From an uncultured Eubacteriales bacterium (GTDB lineage Bacteria; Bacillota; Clostridia; Saccharofermentanales; UBA5734): a stretch of 38,021 nt of DNA. Both the position numbers and the translations under genes were made by a program. Positions within the stretch are counted from its first letter, which is position 1. The number at the start of each line of letters is the position of its first letter. Where the stretch lies: positions 1 through 38,021 of the forward strand of contig CAIXGU010000219.1 of assembly GCA_903919045.1 (NCBI GenBank), in the 5' to 3' direction. The notes below the pieces were generated by a model. It searched no databases, was not told where the DNA came from, and was given only the letters and a program-made list of their open reading frames with translations. Positions 23,231 through 34,460 of this stretch are shown here, one piece after another.

Positions 23231-24958
23231 TCAGCCGTCCCGGTCCTTCCGGACGACGTCGCGGTGCGCGGCCCGCCAGGCGATCACCTTCAGCGCGACG
23301 GCGACCACGGCGAGGACCACGCCGGCGAGGAGCACGGTGTTCAGGATGCCGCGGTACGTCGCCGCGAGGTCCTCGGAGATCGCCGAGGCGTCGGGTCCTC
23401 CGGTCGGCGTGGGCGTGGCGGGCGCGGGCGTTCCCTCTCCGGGCGTCGCTTCGCCGGTGGCGCCGGGTGTCGCATCGGGCGAGATCGAGGGCGTCACGCC
23501 GGGCAGCGTCTGGACGACGATCGCGGGCGCTTCCTCGGCTGCGGCGCCGGCGCCGAGGGCGACGACGCGGATCGTGTGGTTGGTGCCGGGCTGCAGGTTG
23601 CCGAGCGTCACCCCGCGCGTCTTCTCCGGCATCTCGAACGTCTCGCCGACCGTGCCGTCGGGCCGCGACCAGCGGATCAGGAAGCCGCGGATGTTGTCGA
23701 CGTACAGGTCGCTCGAACGCCAGGAAAGGGAGATCGAGGTCTCGGTGACCTTCACGACCTTGATCGTCGGGCTGAGATTCAACCAGAGGTTCGTGGTCAT
23801 CGTGACGACATGCGGGTCGAGCACGCCCTGCGACTCGCCGTCGGCCTGGCCGACCGCATTCGAGCCGAAGGCCCACACGGTGCCGGTCGAGCTGCGGGCG
23901 AGGACGTGGCGGTTGCCGACGGCGACTTCGCTCGCACCGGACAGAGCGACCGGGACGGGGTAGGGGATCGTGCCGGAGAGCGTGCGGCCGAGTCGTCCGC
24001 CATCGGCGTAGCCCCAGCCCATCAGGGAGCCTGCGGCGAGGACTGCGACGACGTGGTCCGGGCCGCAATCGGCCGACGCCACGCCCGAAAGGGGCTCCCC
24101 GCCGGCGGCCGCGAGGACGGGTCCTGCGACCGGGTCCGAGGTGCCGCCCGTGTCGCGGCCGAGCACGCCGGAAGCGGCGCTTCCGAACGAGTAGAGGAGG
24201 CCCGAGCGCGACACGGCGACGGCGAAGCCCTTGCCGGCGGATACGGAGGCGATCCCGGCGAGCGGCGCTTCGCCCGCGCCGGAGTGCACGAGGACCTGGC
24301 GCGCCTTGGCCGGCGAAGCCGCATCGGTCTGGTAGACCGTGCCGTCGCTCTTCAGGACGACGACCTGGGCGGTCCCGACGGAGACTCCGACGAGGCCCTT
24401 GAGCGCCTGTCCCGCGCCGTCGAGCTGCACGGCCGTCGGCCGCAGCGCTTTGCCCCAGACGACCACGGAGCCGTCCGCGAGGAGGGCGGCGCTGCTCGTC
24501 CCGCCTGCGCCGATCGCGACGGCGCCGCTCAGCGTGCCGCCGTTCTGGAGGCGGACGGGGGCGGCCGACAGGATCTTCGCCGCGGAGGAGCTCGTGGAGA
24601 GCGAGCTCGAGGGGTTCGCGCCGAAGGCCCATACGGTCCGGTCGCTCAGGAGGATCAGGGAATGGGAGTCTCCCGCGGCGACGGAGACCGCCTTGCGGGC
24701 CGACGTCGCCGTATAGACCATGACGGGAGCGAAGCGGCGCGTCGTCGTGCCGTCGCCGATCTGGCCGTAGGCATTGTCGCCGAAGGCCCAGACGTTCCCG
24801 GAGTCGTCGATCGCGAGCGAATGCTGGAAGCCCGCGGCGATCCGGGGAACGGGCGCGGCCGCGGCCACGGGCGCAGGTCCGGCGGCGATCCACGCGGCGG
24901 AGGACGCGAGCAGGGCCGCGAGCGCGAGCGCGGGGATCCGGAGCGCCGGTCGCCTCAC
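23231..24958 (-). CDS. Secreted RCC1-repeat protein with FN3 domain and C-terminal TM anchor
   Basis: GTG start overlapping upstream stop (GTGA); signal peptide 'IPALALAALLASSAAWIAAGPAPVAAAA'; RCC1 repeats 'IAAGFQHSLAIDDSGNVWAFGDNAYGQIGDGTT'; FN3-like 'ISLSWRSSDLYVDNIRGFLIRWSRPDG'; TM 'ILNTVLLAGVVLAVVAVALKVIAW'. Confidence 0.87.
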   Translation of the reverse strand: MRRPALRIPALALAALLASSAAWIAAGPAPVAAAAPVPRIAAGFQHSLAIDDSGNVWAFGDNAYGQIGDGTTTRRFAPVMVYTATSARKAVSVAAGDSHSLILLSDRTVWAFGANPSSSLSTSSSAAKILSAAPVRLQNGGTLSGAVAIGAGGTSSAALLADGSVVVWGKALRPTAVQLDGAGQALKGLVGVSVGTAQVVVLKSDGTVYQTDAASPAKARQVLVHSGAGEAPLAGIASVSAGKGFAVAVSRSGLLYSFGSAASGVLGRDTGGTSDPVAGPVLAAAGGEPLSGVASADCGPDHVVAVLAAGSLMGWGYADGGRLGRTLSGTIPYPVPVALSGASEVAVGNRHVLARSSTGTVWAFGSNAVGQADGESQGVLDPHVVTMTTNLWLNLSPTIKVVKVTETSISLSWRSSDLYVDNIRGFLIRWSRPDGTVGETFEMPEKTRGVTLGNLQPGTNHTIRVVALGAGAAAEEAPAIVVQTLPGVTPSISPDATPGATGEATPGEGTPAPATPTPTGGPDASAISEDLAATYRGILNTVLLAGVVLAVVAVALKVIAWRAAHRDVVRKDRDG

Positions 24959-27042
24959 GCGCCGCCACCCTTCATGCCGTCGACCCGTCGGATCGCGAGA
25001 TAGGAGGACGGAAGCGCCAGCCCCAGGAGGAGGGAGGCCGCGACGGCGGCCGCCGCGGGCGTGAGCGAGAAGGGAGGCAGGACGACGCCCTTCCCGTAGA
25101 AGGCGTCGACATCCCACGGGACCTCGAGCGGCATCGGAGTTCCGAAATCATCCGGGTTCCAGGAGGGCACGACCGGAACGGCCGGCTCGACGGGGCCGTC
25201 TCCCGGCGTGACGTCGGGCGGTTCGGTGGGTTCGGGCGTGACGTCGGGCGATTCGGTGGGTTCGGGCGTGACGTCGCCGGTGGGCGCAGGGGAGGCCGCC
25301 CCTCCGGTCGGCGCGTCCGTAGATTCGGGCGTCGCCATGGGCGTAAGGTCGTAGGGATACTCCTCTTCACCGGTCGGGAAGGCCTGCTCGTAGGTCATGC
25401 CGTCCGGCACGAATTCGTAGGAGAGGCCCGGATAGGAGACGTTGCCATCCGCGTCGTACGCATACAGCCGGAAGATCTGGGGCGCCGTCGGGTCGTAGCC
25501 GTCGACCGTCCCCGACCGCCCGTCGGAGAAGTCGACGACCTTCACCTCGCCGGCCGGATCCAGATACCGCGCCTCATACCCTGCGACCGCGAGGTTGTCG
25601 GCGGCGGCCGGCCAGGAGAAGACCAGGGAGTCGGCCTTCCGCTCCAAGACCGACAGCGAGGAGCCGGTGCGGAAGCCCGGCGCGATCCGGTCGGGCAGGA
25701 CGGAGCCCACCGGGTGCCTCCGGTCGATCGAGGTGCCGTCCCCGAGCTGCCCCGCATCGTTGCGCCCCATTCCGCCGAGCTGGCCCTTCACGCCCAGCAG
25801 CAGCGTGTGCGAGCCGCTGGTGGCGATCGCGGCGAACGGCAGGAAGACGGAGCCCGTCCAGCCGTTGGACGTCGCCTCGAGCGCCGTCGGCCGCGTGACG
25901 GCCTTCAGGGAACCGAGCCCGAGCGCGCCCTCCAGGTTGCTGCCGATCACGAGGAGTCGGGCGCGGGGATCGCCCGTGCGGTCCTCGAAAGGCGAAACGA
26001 CGAGCGAGGTCCCGGCTCCGGCCGCGATGAGGGACACCGTGTCGTCCGCCGGATCCGCGTTCCCGGTCAGGTCGATGCGGACCGGATACAGGGAGTACCC
26101 GCTCGCGTCCGGCGAAAGGCCGAGACCCAGCTGTCCGGCGGCGTCGGAGCCCCAGCCCCAGACGGTGCGGGAGACGGTGCCGTCGTCGGCGACGGTCCGC
26201 CGGACGGCGAGGGCGTGGTCGGAGCCCGCGGAGATCGCCACGACGTCCTCGAGGCCGACGACGGGCTCCGGCTTCGCGCGGGAGACCCGCGTCCCGTCGC
26301 CGAGCTGGCCGGCGTCGTTGGCGCCGAAGGCGAGCACGGTGCCGTCTTCCATGAGGACCAGCGTGAAGTACTGGCCCGCGGCGATCGCGACGGCCCCCTT
26401 CTCCACGACGAGGGTCGGCGTGGCGACCCTCGTTCCGAGCACGGTGCCGTCGGTGTCCAGGATCGTCTCGGATTCGGCCGGTCCGACCTCGAGCTCGGTG
26501 TTGCGGCCCCAGGCGTAGACGGCGCCGTCGGCCGCGAGGGCGACGGAGTGGTGGGCTCCGGCCGCGACGGCGATCACGGGCGGGAGGGCCTCGAGGAGGA
26601 CGGGTTCCGATTGGTTCCGCGTTTCACCCGTGCCGAGCTGGCCGTAGAGGTTGCGGCCCCAGACGTACACGCTGCCGTCGGACGTGGCGGCGAGGCTGTG
26701 CCAGTAGCCGGCCGCGATCGAGACGGCGTCGGAAGGGTATTCGAGTTCGGCGGGCCGGCTGCGGTTGACGTTGGTGCCGTCGCCGAGCTGGCCGAAGGTG
26801 TTGTCGCCGAACGAGAGGATCCGTCCGTCGAGGTTGAGGACGAGGCTGTGGCGGAGCCCGCAGGCGAGGGCGGTCCCGGAGCCCGTGTCGATGGGCACGG
26901 GCGAGCCTTCGTCCGTGCCGCCGGACGTGCCGGTCCCCAGGCCGAGCGCGGGGGCGCCGGCCAGGAGCAGGACGGCCGTTGCGGCCGCGAGGGCGAGAAG
27001 GGAGCGCAGGCGTCGCGCGGGAGCGGAGCTGCGAAGGGTCAT
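24955..27042 (-). CDS. Secreted RCC1-repeat protein with FN3 domain, Thr/Pro-rich stalk and C-terminal TM anchor
   Basis: Signal peptide 'LLALAAATAVLLLAGAPALG'; many 'ALACGLRHSLVLNLDGRILSFGDNTFGQLGDGTN' type repeats; stalk 'TPEPTESPDVTPEPTEPPDVTPG'; TM 'PAAAAVAASLLLGLALPSSYLAI'; SD 'ggagg'. Confidence 0.88.
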   Translation of the reverse strand: MTLRSSAPARRLRSLLALAAATAVLLLAGAPALGLGTGTSGGTDEGSPVPIDTGSGTALACGLRHSLVLNLDGRILSFGDNTFGQLGDGTNVNRSRPAELEYPSDAVSIAAGYWHSLAATSDGSVYVWGRNLYGQLGTGETRNQSEPVLLEALPPVIAVAAGAHHSVALAADGAVYAWGRNTELEVGPAESETILDTDGTVLGTRVATPTLVVEKGAVAIAAGQYFTLVLMEDGTVLAFGANDAGQLGDGTRVSRAKPEPVVGLEDVVAISAGSDHALAVRRTVADDGTVSRTVWGWGSDAAGQLGLGLSPDASGYSLYPVRIDLTGNADPADDTVSLIAAGAGTSLVVSPFEDRTGDPRARLLVIGSNLEGALGLGSLKAVTRPTALEATSNGWTGSVFLPFAAIATSGSHTLLLGVKGQLGGMGRNDAGQLGDGTSIDRRHPVGSVLPDRIAPGFRTGSSLSVLERKADSLVFSWPAAADNLAVAGYEARYLDPAGEVKVVDFSDGRSGTVDGYDPTAPQIFRLYAYDADGNVSYPGLSYEFVPDGMTYEQAFPTGEEEYPYDLTPMATPESTDAPTGGAASPAPTGDVTPEPTESPDVTPEPTEPPDVTPGDGPVEPAVPVVPSWNPDDFGTPMPLEVPWDVDAFYGKGVVLPPFSLTPAAAAVAASLLLGLALPSSYLAIRRVDGMKGGGA
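25207..25277. repeat. 30-bp in-frame tandem repeat, about 2.4 copies, encoding the Thr/Pro-rich stalk
   Basis: 'gcgtgacgtcgggcg(g/a)ttcggtgggttcgg' at 25207-25236 and 25237-25266, partial third copy. Confidence 0.85.
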
Positions 27043-27100
27043 CGCGGGAGAACCTCCGGGAAGGTCGCTGGCAGGAGGGGCGGATGCTGCATACCCGGAC

Positions 27101-27130
27101 AATATACCATTCGCGGGCGCGATTCGACAA
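27101..27130 (-). promoter_or_regulatory. Candidate promoter for the RCC1 gene pair
   Basis: Minus strand TTGTCG (27130-27125), 18-bp spacer, TATATT (27106-27101). Confidence 0.5.
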
Positions 27131-27145
27131 TCGAAGGAACCGGGC

Positions 27146-27174
27146 TTGACAGTCCGTCCCGGGCGCTCTACAAT
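27146..27174 (+). promoter_or_regulatory. Consensus sigma70-type promoter for the T-box/trpB2 transcript
   Basis: TTGACA (27146-27151), 17-bp spacer, TACAAT (27169-27174). Confidence 0.85.
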
Positions 27175-27179
27175 CCATC

Positions 27180-27463
27180 CAATCGAATAGCGATCCGTAG
27201 ACCGGAACGAGTACCCTGCAGTCCGATGACCCAGCGAGCCGGCGGTTGGTGGAAGGCCCGGCGCATCAGGGGCAGGCGAATGGATCCGCGAGGAGCGAGG
27301 GGGAACCCCGGAAGGGCTGTATCCCGAGCCGCAGACCCGGCGTTGGAGGGGGAGGGCATGAAGGCCGCACCGGCCGTGTGCCCGCAAAAGAAGAGCCTAC
27401 GGGCTCAAGATGGGTGGCACCGCGACGCCATATCGCCCCATTGGGTGGACGATATGGCTTTTT
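27180..27463 (+). promoter_or_regulatory. T-box leader, tryptophan specifier
   Basis: AGTA motif ('aacgAGTAccc'), distal-loop/AG-bulge-like 'gatgacccagcgagccgg...', 'ggcgaaTGGatccgc' specifier (TGG 27281-27283), T-box consensus 'AAGATGGGTGGCACCGCG' (27407-27424), followed by an intrinsic terminator. Confidence 0.9.
27427..27463 (+). terminator. T-box regulatory intrinsic terminator
   Basis: GCCATATCG (27427-27435) pairs with CGATATGGC (27450-27458), followed by TTTTT. Confidence 0.88.
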
Positions 27464-28917: not shown

Positions 28918-28946
28918 CGCGGGGGGGCGGCCGCCGCCCCCCCGCG
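28918..28946. terminator. All-GC perfect 13-bp hairpin downstream of trpB2
   Basis: cgcgggggggcgg-ccg-ccgcccccccgcg, perfect inverted repeat with 3-nt loop, 13 bp after the stop; no U-tract. Confidence 0.55.
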
Positions 28947-28981
28947 TGGACGCCGCCGGAACGGAGCGGTATAACGTTCGT

Positions 28982-30280
28982 ATGGGCATCATCGACCCCG
29001 GCCGGATCCCGAAGGAGGCGCTCGACGTGCTCGACCGCCTGACCGCGGCCGGCTACGCCGCCTGCCTCGTGGGCGGATGCGTGCGGGACCTCGCGTCGGG
29101 CCGCGACCCGAAGGACTACGACGTCGCCACCTCGGCCCCCGTGGCGGAGGTGGCGGCGCTGTTCCCGCGGACGGTCCCGACCGGGCTGCGGCACGGCACC
29201 GTGACCGTCCTCGCTGGCGCCCTCGCGGTCGAGGTGACCACCTTCCGGAGCGAAGGAGCCTACCGCGACCACCGCCGCCCGTCCGAAGTGGTCTTCCACG
29301 ACGACCGCGCCCTCGATCTCGCCCGGCGCGACTTCACCTGCAACGCGATGGCCTGGACGCCCGAGGAGGGCCTCGTGGACCTCTTCGGCGGGCGCGACGA
29401 CCTGCGGGCCGGCGTGCTGCGCACCGTCGGCGACCCAGAGGACCGCTTCCGCGAGGACGCGCTGCGGATGCTCCGCGCGGTTCGCTTCTGCTGCGCGCTG
29501 GACCTGGCGCCGGTGGGGGAGCTCGTCCGCGCCTGCGCGCGGAACGCGGGACTCCTCTCGCACGTGAGCGCCGAGCGGATCGCCGGCGAGTGCACCCGCA
29601 TCTTCCTCTCGACGCATCCCGCGCGGCTGGCGGGATTCGACGGCTCCGGCGTCCTCGAGGCCGCCTTCGGGCGCGTCCTGCCGCTCCGCGGGGAGACGGC
29701 CGGCCTTGCGTACGGCGCCTACCTCGCGTCCGCGCTCGAGCGCTTCGGTCCGTCCGCGGAGGCCGGCTACGCCCTGCTGCTCCTCCACGCCGCCGCGTCG
29801 GGCGGGCTGGACGCGCGCGACGCGATGGCCTCGAAGCAGCGCCTGATGGCCGGCCACCGGCTCTCCGCGCGCATCTCCGGGGGAGCGGCCGCCCTCGCCT
29901 TCGTCGCCGCGTCGCCGACCGGCGCTCCGGGGGAGGAGGAGACGGCCCTGCGCCGGACGGCCGCCCGCCTCGCGCGGGTCGCCGGACTCGACGGCGCGAC
30001 GGCGCGCCTCCGCCTGAGGGACGGCGTACGGCTCCTGCATGCGCTCCCGACCGGAAACGCCGCGCCCGGGCTCGCCGATGCCGCCGCGTCGATCGCGCGC
30101 CGCGCGGACCCCGTGACGTCCGACGAGCTCGCCCTGTCGGGCTCCGACCTCGTCGCGCTGGGACACTCCGCCGGACCGTCGCTCGGCCGCCTGCGCCAAC
30201 GCCTCCTCGAGGCCGTGATCGAGGACCCGCGGCGCAACCGCCGCGAGGCGTTGCAGGCGCTTCTGGAAGGTATGGTATAA
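28982..30280 (+). CDS. cca: CCA tRNA nucleotidyltransferase / poly(A) polymerase family
   Basis: 'GYAACLVGGCVRDLASGRDPKDYDVATSA', 'DFTCNAMAWTPEEGLVDLFGGRDDLRAGVLRTVGDPEDRFREDALRMLRAVRF'. Confidence 0.92.
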   Translation: MGIIDPGRIPKEALDVLDRLTAAGYAACLVGGCVRDLASGRDPKDYDVATSAPVAEVAALFPRTVPTGLRHGTVTVLAGALAVEVTTFRSEGAYRDHRRPSEVVFHDDRALDLARRDFTCNAMAWTPEEGLVDLFGGRDDLRAGVLRTVGDPEDRFREDALRMLRAVRFCCALDLAPVGELVRACARNAGLLSHVSAERIAGECTRIFLSTHPARLAGFDGSGVLEAAFGRVLPLRGETAGLAYGAYLASALERFGPSAEAGYALLLLHAAASGGLDARDAMASKQRLMAGHRLSARISGGAAALAFVAASPTGAPGEEETALRRTAARLARVAGLDGATARLRLRDGVRLLHALPTGNAAPGLADAAASIARRADPVTSDELALSGSDLVALGHSAGPSLGRLRQRLLEAVIEDPRRNRREALQALLEGMV

Positions 30281-30281: not shown

Positions 30282-30342
30282 TCCATCAGTTTTTTCCGCA
30301 CGCCGTCGAGCAAGGCGGTGAGCGGACCCGAGGAGGATGCAT

Positions 30343-31773
30343 ATGGCCAGGACCGCCCGGATCTCGACTACCGTGACCGCCCGCTATTCCCCGGCACCCG
30401 GGGTACGGGACGCCTTCTGGCTCGACGGTCGCCTGTCGGGCCGTCGCGAGGCGCGTGCCGCCGACATCACGCTCGACCGGGAGGACCGAGGCGCCTTCTT
30501 CGCCGTGTTCGCCCGTCCGGCGCCCGCGGGCGATGCGGAGGCGGACGCCGCGGCGCTGCGCCGCACGCTCGAGCGGATGGACAACGAGGTCAAGAGGACG
30601 GGCCGCAACATCGACACCGAGATCAACGAGCTGGCCGACTGCGCCGTCGAGGTCTGCGGCCGGATCTCCCTCTCCCAGGAAGGCGTGCGGTCGCCCTATT
30701 TCGCCGGCATCATCGTGAAGGACAACGAGGTCGCCGCCGTGACCCTCGGGGGCGGCTGCGCCTACCTCTACCGCGGCGACGCCCTGTATCCGCTCACCGG
30801 GGACGACTTCGAGCTCGAACCCGTCGACGCCCTCGGCAACGTCGTGCACAACCTCGAAGCCTACTGCGCCGGCACCGCCGGCACCGTCCGCTACTCCAAC
30901 ATCGCGCCGCTCCTTCCGGACGACTGCCTGGTCGTCTGCAACCGCGAGGTCATGGAGACGCTCGGCCAGAAGGAGGTCCTGCGCCTCCTGTACGAAGCCG
31001 AGGACCAGTGCGACGCCGCCGGGCTGATCGCGACGTCGGCCGCGGCGAAGGCGCCGGGGCTGCCGATCCAGTTCATGATCGGTTTCACCGAGGCCGTGAA
31101 CAGCGGCGAGCGCGGCCTGCGCCCCGCTGCGGGACGGCCCGAGCGCATCGGCGCCTCCGCTTCCTATGCGGCCGCCGGCGCGGCCGCCGCTGCCGGCGCC
31201 GAGGGCGCGGAAGGCGCCGACGACGCGCCGACCGACGGCGTCTACCGCGGCCCCTCCGAGGTCCCGGCCGTCGCGACGAAGCGCACCGCTCCGCCTCCGC
31301 CGCGCCCCGACCGCTTCCGCAGCGGCGCCCGTCGCCGTCCCGCGATCGATCCTCGCACGATCGCCCTCGTGATCGTCGTGATCGGCATTTCCGTCGGCGC
31401 CGTGTTCGCGCTGCTCCGCATCCTGGATTTCGGCGGGAACCCGAGCCCGACGGCGACGCCGTCCGCGGGCCCGACCGCCGAGGCGACCCTCGAGCCGACC
31501 GGCGAAGGCACGCCCTCCGCGGAGGCGACGCCTACGAAGTCCGACGAGCTCGCCACCCCGACCCCCGACCCGGCGACGCCGACCGGCTCCGCCGAAACCT
31601 ACACCGTCAAGGCCGGCGATACGCTGTGGGCGATCTGCATCAAGTTCTACGGCAAATACTCCGAGACCCTGGCGCAGGGCATCCTCGACGCCAACGCCGA
31701 GCAGTACCCGACGTTCACGTCGGCGGACAAGATCCAGAAGGGCTGGGTCCTCACGATCCCGCCGCAGCAGTAG
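30343..31773 (+). CDS. PP2C-like (predicted inactive) cytoplasmic domain, single TM segment, Thr/Pro linker, extracellular LysM domain
   Basis: PP2C-fold-like motifs 'RGAFFAVFARPAPAGDAEADAAA', 'VAAVTLGGGCAYLYRGDALYPLTGDDFE', 'LLPDDCLVVCNREVMETL'; TM 'TIALVIVVIGISVGAVFALLRIL'; LysM 'TYTVKAGDTLWAICIKFYGKYSETLAQGILDANAEQYPTFTSADKIQKGWVLTIP'. SD favours start 30343 over 30337. Confidence 0.8.
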   Translation: MARTARISTTVTARYSPAPGVRDAFWLDGRLSGRREARAADITLDREDRGAFFAVFARPAPAGDAEADAAALRRTLERMDNEVKRTGRNIDTEINELADCAVEVCGRISLSQEGVRSPYFAGIIVKDNEVAAVTLGGGCAYLYRGDALYPLTGDDFELEPVDALGNVVHNLEAYCAGTAGTVRYSNIAPLLPDDCLVVCNREVMETLGQKEVLRLLYEAEDQCDAAGLIATSAAAKAPGLPIQFMIGFTEAVNSGERGLRPAAGRPERIGASASYAAAGAAAAAGAEGAEGADDAPTDGVYRGPSEVPAVATKRTAPPPPRPDRFRSGARRRPAIDPRTIALVIVVIGISVGAVFALLRILDFGGNPSPTATPSAGPTAEATLEPTGEGTPSAEATPTKSDELATPTPDPATPTGSAETYTVKAGDTLWAICIKFYGKYSETLAQGILDANAEQYPTFTSADKIQKGWVLTIPPQQ

Positions 31774-31785
31774 GAGACGCAGCGG

Positions 31786-32868
31786 ATGCACAAGCGCCTC
31801 TTCATCCCCGGCCCCGTCGAGGTCCGTCCCGACATCCTCGAGAAGATGGGCACGCCCATGATCGGGCACCGCTCGAAGGCCGCCTCGGCCCTGCAGGCCG
31901 GCATCGCCGACAAGCTGCGCGTCCTGATGGCCACGGAGAACGTGATCCTCCTGTCGACCTCGTCGGGTAGCGGCCTGATGGAAGGAGCGATCCGCTCCTG
32001 CACGCGCCGCCGCGCCGCGGTCTTCTCGATCGGTGCCTTCGGCGAGCGCTGGTACAAGATGGCCACCGCGAACGCCGTCCCCGCCGACCTCTTCTCGGTC
32101 GAACCGGGGCGCGCGACGCTGCCGGAGCACGTGGAGGCCGCCCTGGCGACGGGGAAGTACGACCTCGTGACCGTCACGCACAACGAGACGGCGACGGGCG
32201 TCATGAACCCGGTCGAGGGCATCGCCGAGGTCCTGCGGCGCCATCCGGACGTCGTCTGGTGCGTTGATGCCGTCAGCTCCCTCGGCGGCGCCCGGATCGA
32301 CGTGGACCGTCTCGGCATCGACGTATGCATCACGTCGACGCAGAAGTGCCTGGGCCTGCCGCCCGGGATGGCCCTCTGCTCGGTCTCCCAGAAGGCGTAC
32401 CATGCGGCGGAGCAGGTCCCGCACCGCGGGCTCTACTTCGACTTCGTGGAGCTCTACAAGTACGTGACGGAGAAGGAGAGCCAGTACCCGTCCACGCCTT
32501 CGCTCGCGCACATGTACGCGCTCGACCACCAGCTCGACCGCATCCTCGCCGAAGGACCCGAAGCCCGCTTCGCGCGCCACCATGCCATGGCGGAACGCGT
32601 CCGCGGCTGGGCCCGGGAGCGGTTCGCGCTGTTCGCCGACCCGGAGCACCTGTCCGAGACGGTGACCTGCATCGCGAACACCCGCGGCATCGACGTGTCC
32701 GCGCTGAACAGGGCGCTCGGGGAAGCCGGCTACGAGATCTCGAACGGATACGGCGCGCTCAAGGACAGGACGTTCCGCATCGCCCACATGGGCGACGCCA
32801 CGCCGGCCGACATCGACGGGCTGCTGGCCGCCATCGACGCCGTGCTGGCGCAAGGAGGAACCCGATGA
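31786..32868 (+). CDS. Class V aminotransferase (alanine-glyoxylate / serine-pyruvate aminotransferase-like)
   Basis: 'LFIPGPVEVRPDILEKMGTPMIGHRSK', 'VDAVSSLGGARIDVDRLGIDVCITSTQKCLGLPPGMALCSVS' PLP-lysine motif. Confidence 0.9.
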   Translation: MHKRLFIPGPVEVRPDILEKMGTPMIGHRSKAASALQAGIADKLRVLMATENVILLSTSSGSGLMEGAIRSCTRRRAAVFSIGAFGERWYKMATANAVPADLFSVEPGRATLPEHVEAALATGKYDLVTVTHNETATGVMNPVEGIAEVLRRHPDVVWCVDAVSSLGGARIDVDRLGIDVCITSTQKCLGLPPGMALCSVSQKAYHAAEQVPHRGLYFDFVELYKYVTEKESQYPSTPSLAHMYALDHQLDRILAEGPEARFARHHAMAERVRGWARERFALFADPEHLSETVTCIANTRGIDVSALNRALGEAGYEISNGYGALKDRTFRIAHMGDATPADIDGLLAAIDAVLAQGGTR

Positions 32869-34460
32869 GGATCCTGGTCACCGAGAAGATCGCCGAGGAC
32901 GCCCTGCAGTACCTGCGCGACCAGGGTTTCGACGTCGACGAGCGCCTCGGCCTGTCCCAGGCGCAGATCGAGGGGATCGTCGCGCCCTACGATGGGTTGA
33001 TCGTCCGCAGCGTCACGCAGGTCAACCGCAGCCTGCTTTCGCACGCTGATGCGATGAAGGTCGTCGGGCGCGCGGGGAACGGCATCGACAACATCGACGT
33101 CGATGCGTGCACGGACAAGGGCATCGTCGCCGTCAACACGCCCGAGGCCAACATCATGGCCGCCGCCGAGCTCGCCGTCGGCCTCGCCTTCTGCGCCTTC
33201 CGCAACATCTGCCTGGCCGACCAGGGCGCCCGCCGCGACGAGTTCCGGCGCGGGAAGATGATCGGCAACGAGCTCGAGGGGAAGACCGCCGGCATCATCG
33301 GCCTCGGCCGGATCGGCTCGATCGTCGCCCGCAAGCTCAAGGGCATCGGGATGTCCGTGATCGCCTACGACCCGTACATCACCGAGGAGCGCTTCGAGCG
33401 CGTGGGCGCCGAGAAGGTCGACCGCCTCGAGGACCTGCTCGTACGGTCCGACCTGATCACCTTCCACACGCCGAAGACCAAGGAGACCTACAACATGGTC
33501 GACGCCCCGCAGCTCGCGATGTGCCGCCGGGGCGTGCGCATCGTGAACGCCGCGCGCGGCGGCCTCGTGAACGAGACGGCGCTCTACGACGCGCTCGTGT
33601 CGGGCCAGGTCGCGGCCGCCGGCATCGACGTCTTCGACAAGGAGCCGAGCTACGACCGCAAGCCCGGCGAGCTGAACTTCCAGCACCCGCTCCTCACGCT
33701 GCCGAACGTCGTCGTCACGCCGCACCTCGGCGCCTCGACGCACGAGGCGAACCACAACGTCGGCACGGCCGTCACCGAGCTCGTCGCGCGCGCCCTGAAG
33801 GGCGACCTGGTCGCTGCGATCAACATGCCGGCCATGAGCGGACCGTGGAGCGAGATGCGCCCGTACCTGTCCCTCGCGGAGAAGCTCGGCTCGATCTACT
33901 ACCAGGCCGAGAAGGCGCGCGTGAACCGGCTCGAGATCGTCTACGGCGGCGAGCTCGCCTCCTCCGAGACCGGCCTGCTCACGCTGTCGGTCCTGAAGGG
34001 CTTCCTCGGACCGATCTCCCAGGAGCGCGTCAACTTCGTGAACGTCTCCCGCAACGTCGAGCAGATGGGCGTGGAGGTCGTCGAGAGCCGCACGACGCAC
34101 CTCGACAAGTACACGAGCCTGATCACGGTCCGCTTCGTCACCGAGACCCGCACGCTGTCGGTCTCCGGCACCGTCTTCGGGAAGGACGCGCAGCGCATCA
34201 CGGACTTCTTCGGCTATCCGATGGACTTCGAGCCGATGAACCAGGTGCTCGCCGTCCAGAACGAGGATCGACCGGGCGTGATCGGCCGCATCGGCACGCT
34301 GCTCGGCGAGCGCGAGATCAACATCGCGTCGATGAACTGGGGCCGCAAGGGGACCCGCGCCAACGCGGTGCTCGGCCTCGAGGGAGAGGTCACCGACGAC
34401 GTGGTCGCCGCGGTGTCGCGACTCGACGGCGTCCTGCGCGTCTCGCTGCTGCACTTCTAG
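32865..34460 (+). CDS. serA: D-3-phosphoglycerate dehydrogenase (long form with C-terminal ACT domain)
   Basis: 'VVGRAGNGIDNIDVDACTDKGIVAVNTPEANIMAAAELAVGL', 'GIIGLGRIGSIVARKLKGIGM', 'TPHLGASTHEA', ACT 'NEDRPGVIGRIGTLLGEREINIASMNWGR'; ATGA overlap with the aminotransferase gene. Confidence 0.95.
   Translation: MRILVTEKIAEDALQYLRDQGFDVDERLGLSQAQIEGIVAPYDGLIVRSVTQVNRSLLSHADAMKVVGRAGNGIDNIDVDACTDKGIVAVNTPEANIMAAAELAVGLAFCAFRNICLADQGARRDEFRRGKMIGNELEGKTAGIIGLGRIGSIVARKLKGIGMSVIAYDPYITEERFERVGAEKVDRLEDLLVRSDLITFHTPKTKETYNMVDAPQLAMCRRGVRIVNAARGGLVNETALYDALVSGQVAAAGIDVFDKEPSYDRKPGELNFQHPLLTLPNVVVTPHLGASTHEANHNVGTAVTELVARALKGDLVAAINMPAMSGPWSEMRPYLSLAEKLGSIYYQAEKARVNRLEIVYGGELASSETGLLTLSVLKGFLGPISQERVNFVNVSRNVEQMGVEVVESRTTHLDKYTSLITVRFVTETRTLSVSGTVFGKDAQRITDFFGYPMDFEPMNQVLAVQNEDRPGVIGRIGTLLGEREINIASMNWGRKGTRANAVLGLEGEVTDDVVAAVSRLDGVLRVSLLHF

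Follow-up and report, generated by a model that had tools for sequence, protein, structure and literature searches.

The window (the whole 38,021-nt stretch of DNA analyzed, which is contig C219 of a draft assembly of 2.64 Mb and 308 contigs) encodes a single-pass membrane protein whose N-terminal domain is PP2C by descent and fold. The metal centre of this domain has been replaced, and the gene is under maintenance across the order to which the genome belongs; it is not a decaying gene. We regard the structural and evolutionary part of this account (a PP2C fold, loss of the metal ligands, and descent from active enzymes) as nearly certain. That the product works as a wall-anchored pseudophosphatase, binding a kinase, a phosphatase, or a phospho-target without hydrolysis, we put at about an even chance. 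The open reading frame lies exactly where a preliminary description of the sequence had placed it, and the features of the locus are as follows.

30343–31773 (+): open reading frame of 476 aa; degenerate PP2C, linker, transmembrane (TM) helix, Thr/Pro linker, and LysM
30330–30336 (+): Shine-Dalgarno-like GAGGAGG, 6 nt 5′ of the ATG at 30343 (direct sequence reading)
30352–31101 (+): degenerate PP2C-fold domain, aa 4–253 (AlphaFold2, Foldseek, hhalign, alignments)
31102–31350 (+): inner linker, aa 254–336, predicted cytoplasmic, Ala/Pro/Arg-rich, variable (pLDDT, identity, charge)
31351–31428 (+): lone TM helix, aa 337–362 (hydropathy, AlphaFold2 helix)
31429–31593 (+): outer linker, aa 363–417, Thr/Pro-rich, predicted extracellular, disordered (full-length AlphaFold2, sequence)
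31594–31767 (+): LysM domain, aa 418–475, beta-alpha-alpha-beta (PF01476, AlphaFold2, likeness to Kbp)
28946–30280 (+): CCA-adding tRNA nucleotidyltransferase, upstream neighbor (Pfam PolyA_pol)
31786–32868 (+): class V aminotransferase, starting 12 nt past the pseudophosphatase stop (Pfam Aminotran_5)

The N-Terminal Domain Has a PP2C Fold

Neither Pfam nor NCBIfam models gave a PP2C match in the protein; the LysM region alone was recognized. PP2C was likewise absent from the families matched in a Pfam scan of 33 order members, and a plain sequence search of the PDB (phmmer, A1 profile) returned LysM or chance matches only. The family thus goes unnoticed by Pfam, since LysM is the one part of it that scores, and structure and profile-profile comparison were needed to reveal the PP2C kinship. 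The AlphaFold2 model of the N-terminal domain, made with a 21-sequence alignment, had a mean pLDDT of 90.5 and a pTM of 0.89. A Foldseek search of the PDB with this model yielded 138 matches at E ≤ 0.001; the best 50 of the 138 were all PP2C-family (probability 1.00, E 1e-9); among the matches listed are HAB1, M. tuberculosis PstP (TM 0.55–0.62), tPphA, streptococcal Stp, PppA, and SpoIIE. When the family profile A1 was compared by hhalign with profile A5 (ten PP2C proteins from the active branch, nine of them intact), a probability of 97.9 and an E value of 3.2e-13 were obtained over 234 columns. A profile search of a phylum sample also returned frames of 239–288 aa at E ~1e-4, apparently of ordinary soluble phosphatase size.

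The domain thus shares its fold, its order of motifs, and 234 alignable columns with the bacterial PPM/PP2C phosphatases (Stp/PrpC, PstP, tPphA; PF00481, PF13672). Unlike them, it has no metal ligands, its flap between GDSR and SDG is shorter by ~14 residues, an extra hairpin stands between motifs 1 and 2, a TM helix and a LysM domain are added, and the PP2C part escapes Pfam.

The Metal Ligands Are Lost throughout the Order

To read the metal-site columns, we aligned the protein with L041, an active relative, and with Stp from the same genome. The segments FAVFARPA (residues 53–60), LGGGCAYLYR (135–144), and CNREV (199–203) correspond to FAV(C/A)DGMGG, LGDSR-Y-YR, and CSDGL, respectively. The bridging Asp of DGMGG is replaced by A57, the GDSR Asp by G137, the SDG Asp by R201, the DN Asp by L240, and the NED Glu by R22; of the NED motif, the non-ligand Asp alone is retained, as D23. 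In the active relatives the metal columns are conserved (12/12). With all four core metal-ligand Asp residues gone from the window protein, loss of catalysis is well supported at the level of sequence. The preliminary description had recognized the PP2C order of motifs and had proposed that 'VFARPAPAGD', 'GGGCAYLYR', and 'CNREV' are motifs with their metal-binding positions replaced. Foldseek and the match to active PP2C profiles agree with the former; by alignment the three strings are true motif equivalents, and no Asp stands at any of the equivalent metal positions, none of the four residues there being acidic.

The same losses extend over the order. The DGMGG and SDG ligands are missing from all 35 order members: the bridging column holds Ala in 30 of 35 sequences and Asp in none, and the SDG column holds K/R (Lys or Arg in 27/35). 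At the GDSR Asp column R/G/H/N/S are found, with Asp solely in the deviant L028 and L047, both of which lack the other ligands; the DN Asp column holds V/A/T/L. Apart from the bridging one, the ligand positions fall between the 8th and 23rd percentiles of conservation within the domain, near the bottom of its range (35 sequences), so that binding of a phospho-substrate at the old site is unsupported. The changes are not random, SDG having turned into CN(K/R)E and GDSR into GxGC, which suggests that the site was remodelled more than abandoned. Order-specific invariants are located away from the old active site (T134, P150, D162, R183–N186, and Q243); D28, R30, R35, and D91 are likewise invariants specific to the order. 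Two marks of a pseudophosphatase as a functional class, a fold under selection and lost catalytic motifs, are found in this protein.

The Protein Is Predicted to Span the Envelope

The N terminus of the protein shows no evident hydrophobic signal sequence. The helix at 337–362 is preceded by a net charge of +4 over 21 residues and followed by −1 over 20 residues, the inner linker terminating in a positively charged stretch. By the positive-inside rule the PP2C domain is thus predicted to lie inside and the LysM domain outside, the N-in/C-out arrangement that the preliminary description had proposed. In the full-length AlphaFold2 model the inner linker is disordered at ~264–331 (pLDDT <50 for 264–316 and 322–331).

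The LysM match spans residues 420–473 (PF01476, E 4.5e-5, 23.7 bits; Pfam cut-off 20.9). AlphaFold2 gives the expected beta-alpha-alpha-beta order (E418–421, H428–436, H441–450, E469–472), and the LysM of E. coli Kbp is the closest solved relative of the region. The single TM segment, Thr/Pro-rich linker, and C-terminal LysM domain of the preliminary description are all borne out by the helix modelled and the Pfam score. In a PF01476 search over the whole genome, the window protein was the only LysM match.

LysM was found in 25 of the 33 order members scanned. One of them, L056, carries an SH3_3 (bacterial SH3) domain in its place; SH3_3 domains are often wall-binding as well. The outer part thus appears to vary around wall binding. 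In L044, L045, and other members of family f2, the inner linker is expanded to ~650 residues and the pseudophosphatase domain is retained; the outer domain of L044 no longer scores as LysM.

The Gene Is Retained across the Order

In a first sampling the gene was found in 55 of 58 relatives. Full sampling placed it in 176 of 188 genomes, in 101 of the 106 of good quality, and in all 30 genera of the order (30/30), almost always as a single copy per genome. A retention of 176/188 excludes chance as an explanation of the observation, and near-universal presence in single copy across the order suggests that the dead enzyme probably serves some function. Identity to other order members is 51–87% for the PP2C domain, 15–60% for LysM, 3–39% for the inner linker, and 9–46% for the outer linker, which indicates that selection is strongest on the dead domain. 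A scan of genome contigs returned three near relatives only. A single in-frame stop was seen in L046 (G047:C145), of which the near relative L047 is intact; this is either a broken gene or an assembly error.

The Degenerate Proteins Descend from Active Enzymes

The PP2C-TM-LysM architecture recurs across the order, and a search with profile A2 detected it in a number of further families in the class. LysM was found in 29 of 29 such proteins scanned from other Clostridia families (L041 plus the partly degenerate L037–L040 and L061–L086), and only three of these score against PP2C models. L041 (G251:C23) resembles the window protein in its PP2C-TM-LysM order and in the same hairpin insert, and it aligns along the whole inner domain; it differs in that every catalytic residue is intact and in having two LysM repeats. 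The partly degenerate proteins share both architecture and clade with the window protein, and many of them retain the DGMGG and SDG Asp. The loss is graded: L074 and L078 retain several catalytic residues, and in the large family f10 the DGMGG Asp persists, in many cases together with that of SDG, whereas the window's order lacks the full set.

A maximum-likelihood tree built from 44 domains places all degenerate proteins in one clade (bootstrap 100, SH-aLRT 98), with the order as a long branch inside it; the active enzymes fall outside this clade, and L041, the active form with LysM, is one of those closest to it. A quick tree was also built from 66 rows. A single LysM fusion that includes L041 was not rejected by the AU test (p 0.24). 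The degenerate clade thus descends from active enzymes. The preliminary description recognized no described family with this combination of domains; the open-licence literature searched likewise gave no match. The architecture proves to belong to a larger family that includes the active L041 and graded losses.

Gene Neighborhood

In the window the class V aminotransferase gene is followed by a serA-type D-3-phosphoglycerate dehydrogenase gene. This AGXT-SerA order downstream of the pseudophosphatase gene is conserved across ten genera of three families. The pair (31786–34460, +) is syntenic at L032, L033, L044, L050, L107, L111, and L112, and at the further loci L118, L120, L121, L124, and L125. 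At L047, L048, L050, and L113, a serine dehydratase gene stands upstream, in place of or besides aminotransferase-serA; genes of serine metabolism are recurring surroundings of the pseudophosphatase gene. In a fourth family, and in parts of the others, alaS lies downstream or radA-ispD upstream. A DUF2298 gene is close by, on the strand opposite to the pseudophosphatase gene.

Kinase, FtsW, and PBP genes had been suggested as neighbors to look for; serine-biosynthesis, alaS, and DUF2298 genes were found there instead, and no kinase, Stp, or cell-division gene was recognized adjoining the pseudophosphatase gene in the order members inspected. Secretion genes were also absent from the recurrent neighbors at 35 loci of the order.

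A gene for a DUF2207-type membrane protein lies immediately upstream, on the same strand, in four genera (g5, g14, g16, and g23) and a few kb away in g2, g6, and g9. It was seen immediately upstream at L033, L043, L050, L114, L124, and L125, and within ≤4 kb at L052, L053, L108, and L126. A search of the window's genome gave no DUF2207 match, and DUF2207 was rejected on this ground as a universal obligatory partner.

Elsewhere in the window, two adjoining genes (23231–25117 and 24955–27387, both −) encode proteins with RCC1 repeats, and the first of them also has an fn3 domain; each has a C-terminal Thr/Pro-rich linker and a hydrophobic segment and is likely a surface protein.

Active Relatives Are Linked to Kinases

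Searches of the window's genome gave a single Pkinase match, which has three PASTA stretches, and a single PP2C_2 match, Stp; the two genes adjoin on contig C118. The link of the family to kinases was drawn from active relatives at other loci only. At L095 and L096, genes for active PP2C-TM-Big_2 proteins lie beside a kinase-Big_2 gene. An FHA protein gene is also present at L095, and L096 has a homolog of that gene, c86, as a neighbor. L079, one of the active rows closest to the degenerate clade, adjoins a kinase gene and an FtsK/FHA ATPase gene. Outside the clade, then, the active relatives suggest a connection with Ser/Thr phosphorylation.

At L095 and L096, kinase and phosphatase share the type of their outer domain, extracellular Big_2. 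At L098 (G166:C12), a soluble active PP2C is encoded beside a Ser/Thr kinase with DUF5050 and a large FtsK/SpoIIIE-FHA ATPase, a locus possibly concerned with kinase/phosphatase control of a secretion-like system.

Possible Function of the Pseudophosphatase

Given its kinase-linked active relatives and the one PASTA kinase and one Stp of the genome, the protein is best read as a non-catalytic binder in this pathway. Its ancestor would have been an active membrane PP2C with an outward LysM, which lost its metal centre and retained its fold; in the window's order the inner domain would now be a non-catalytic binding module. LysM may hold or sense peptidoglycan, and candidate partners of the inner domain are the one PASTA kinase of the genome, Stp, and phospho-targets. 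The partner could then be placed, activated, or shielded according to wall state, by analogy with TAB1 on TAK1, and LysM binding outside would be read out by the dead phosphatase domain inside to control the PASTA kinase and Stp. Extended to a clade of envelope-spanning PP2C pseudophosphatases in Clostridia that arose by stepwise loss and act as wall-state receptors controlling the PASTA kinase/Stp pathway, the proposal is tentative, and we think it rather doubtful in that full form.

Against the binder reading stand the lack of a recognized adjacent kinase gene and the unconserved old active site, and these make a non-signalling wall tether a serious rival. Here the PP2C fold would be a generic protein-protein module with no link to Ser/Thr phosphorylation, anchoring to the wall an envelope or housekeeping machine, such as the products of the DUF2207 or DUF2298 neighbors or a metabolic enzyme. 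The placement of the new order-specific invariants outside the old site fits such a role, as do conserved neighbors that are metabolic or membrane genes, with DUF2207 directly upstream in four genera and no kinase among them. However, the close active relatives are kinase-linked, other families of the clade retain part of the active site, which suggests a phosphorylation-related ancestral role, and the window's genome yielded no DUF2207; we give the tether a substantial chance, though less than an even one.

An enzyme in disguise, hydrolyzing phospho-Ser/Thr or another substrate through relocated ligands, might be suspected from the intact fold and from the invariant acidic residues of the domain (D28, D91, D162, D194, and D221). 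Yet none of the five aligns with any metal-ligand column, D194 corresponds to a non-ligand Asp found in active enzymes too, the flap is shortened, and the bridging Asp is mostly Ala; as PPM catalysis requires two or three metals (PMC5468089, PMC12002173), we consider this improbable. A secretion-system component modelled on the pseudokinase EssB/YukC of type VII secretion, with a dead phospho-domain inside and a wall part outside, is very improbable. The active relatives L079 (in L098), L096, and L105 do have an FtsK/SpoIIIE-type ATPase (family c31) encoded in their loci, the c31 member at L098 being FtsK_SpoIIIE plus FHA by Pfam, but a search of the genome gave no YukC/EssB, and the recurrent neighbors lack secretion genes, as noted above. 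Least credible of all is the idea that a phosphatase-LysM fusion survives here as a neutral relic and is being lost: the lost catalytic residues and the in-frame stop of L046 would fit, but order-wide retention, a syntenic locus, and the high identity of the domain essentially refute it.

As for known systems, the non-catalytic binder proposed here has its nearest counterparts in eukaryotes. According to PMC12002173 and PMC8622459, TAB1 and PHLPP1/2 have, like the window protein, a PP2C fold without a competent metal site; TAB1 and PHLPP2 are PP2C pseudophosphatases, TAB1 binding partners and PHLPP having a proposed scaffold role. A role of TAB1 as scaffold/activator of TAK1 in animals has been shown (PMC8622459). 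These proteins differ from the window protein in being eukaryotic, in having arisen by independent losses, and in having no link to a wall, and TAB1 and PHLPP2 bind one metal. PASTA kinases (PrkC/PknB) and the pseudokinase EssB/YukC are likewise single-pass, with an inner kinase-type or dead-kinase domain and an outer part, and PASTA kinases bind the cell wall; unlike the window protein, they have a kinase fold and no LysM (PMC9600267).

Bacterial pseudokinases have by now been catalogued. A 2025 review of them has neither LysM nor PP2C in its text. In the open-licence literature searched, where absence is no proof, we found neither a PP2C pseudophosphatase from bacteria nor a family of PP2C-LysM receptors; articles on PP2C or pseudophosphatases together with LysM, bacteria, or Firmicutes concerned plant immunity, eukaryotic pseudophosphatases, and unrelated pseudoenzymes. 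Here a PP2C pseudophosphatase belongs to the core genes of an entire order, and both living intermediates and an active protein of like architecture exist. Two questions thereby become testable: whether a dead phosphatase can relay the state of the wall through the membrane to Ser/Thr phosphorylation, and by what route an enzyme turns into a receptor. Two order members are represented by single-contig genomes, so isolates suitable for genetics may exist.
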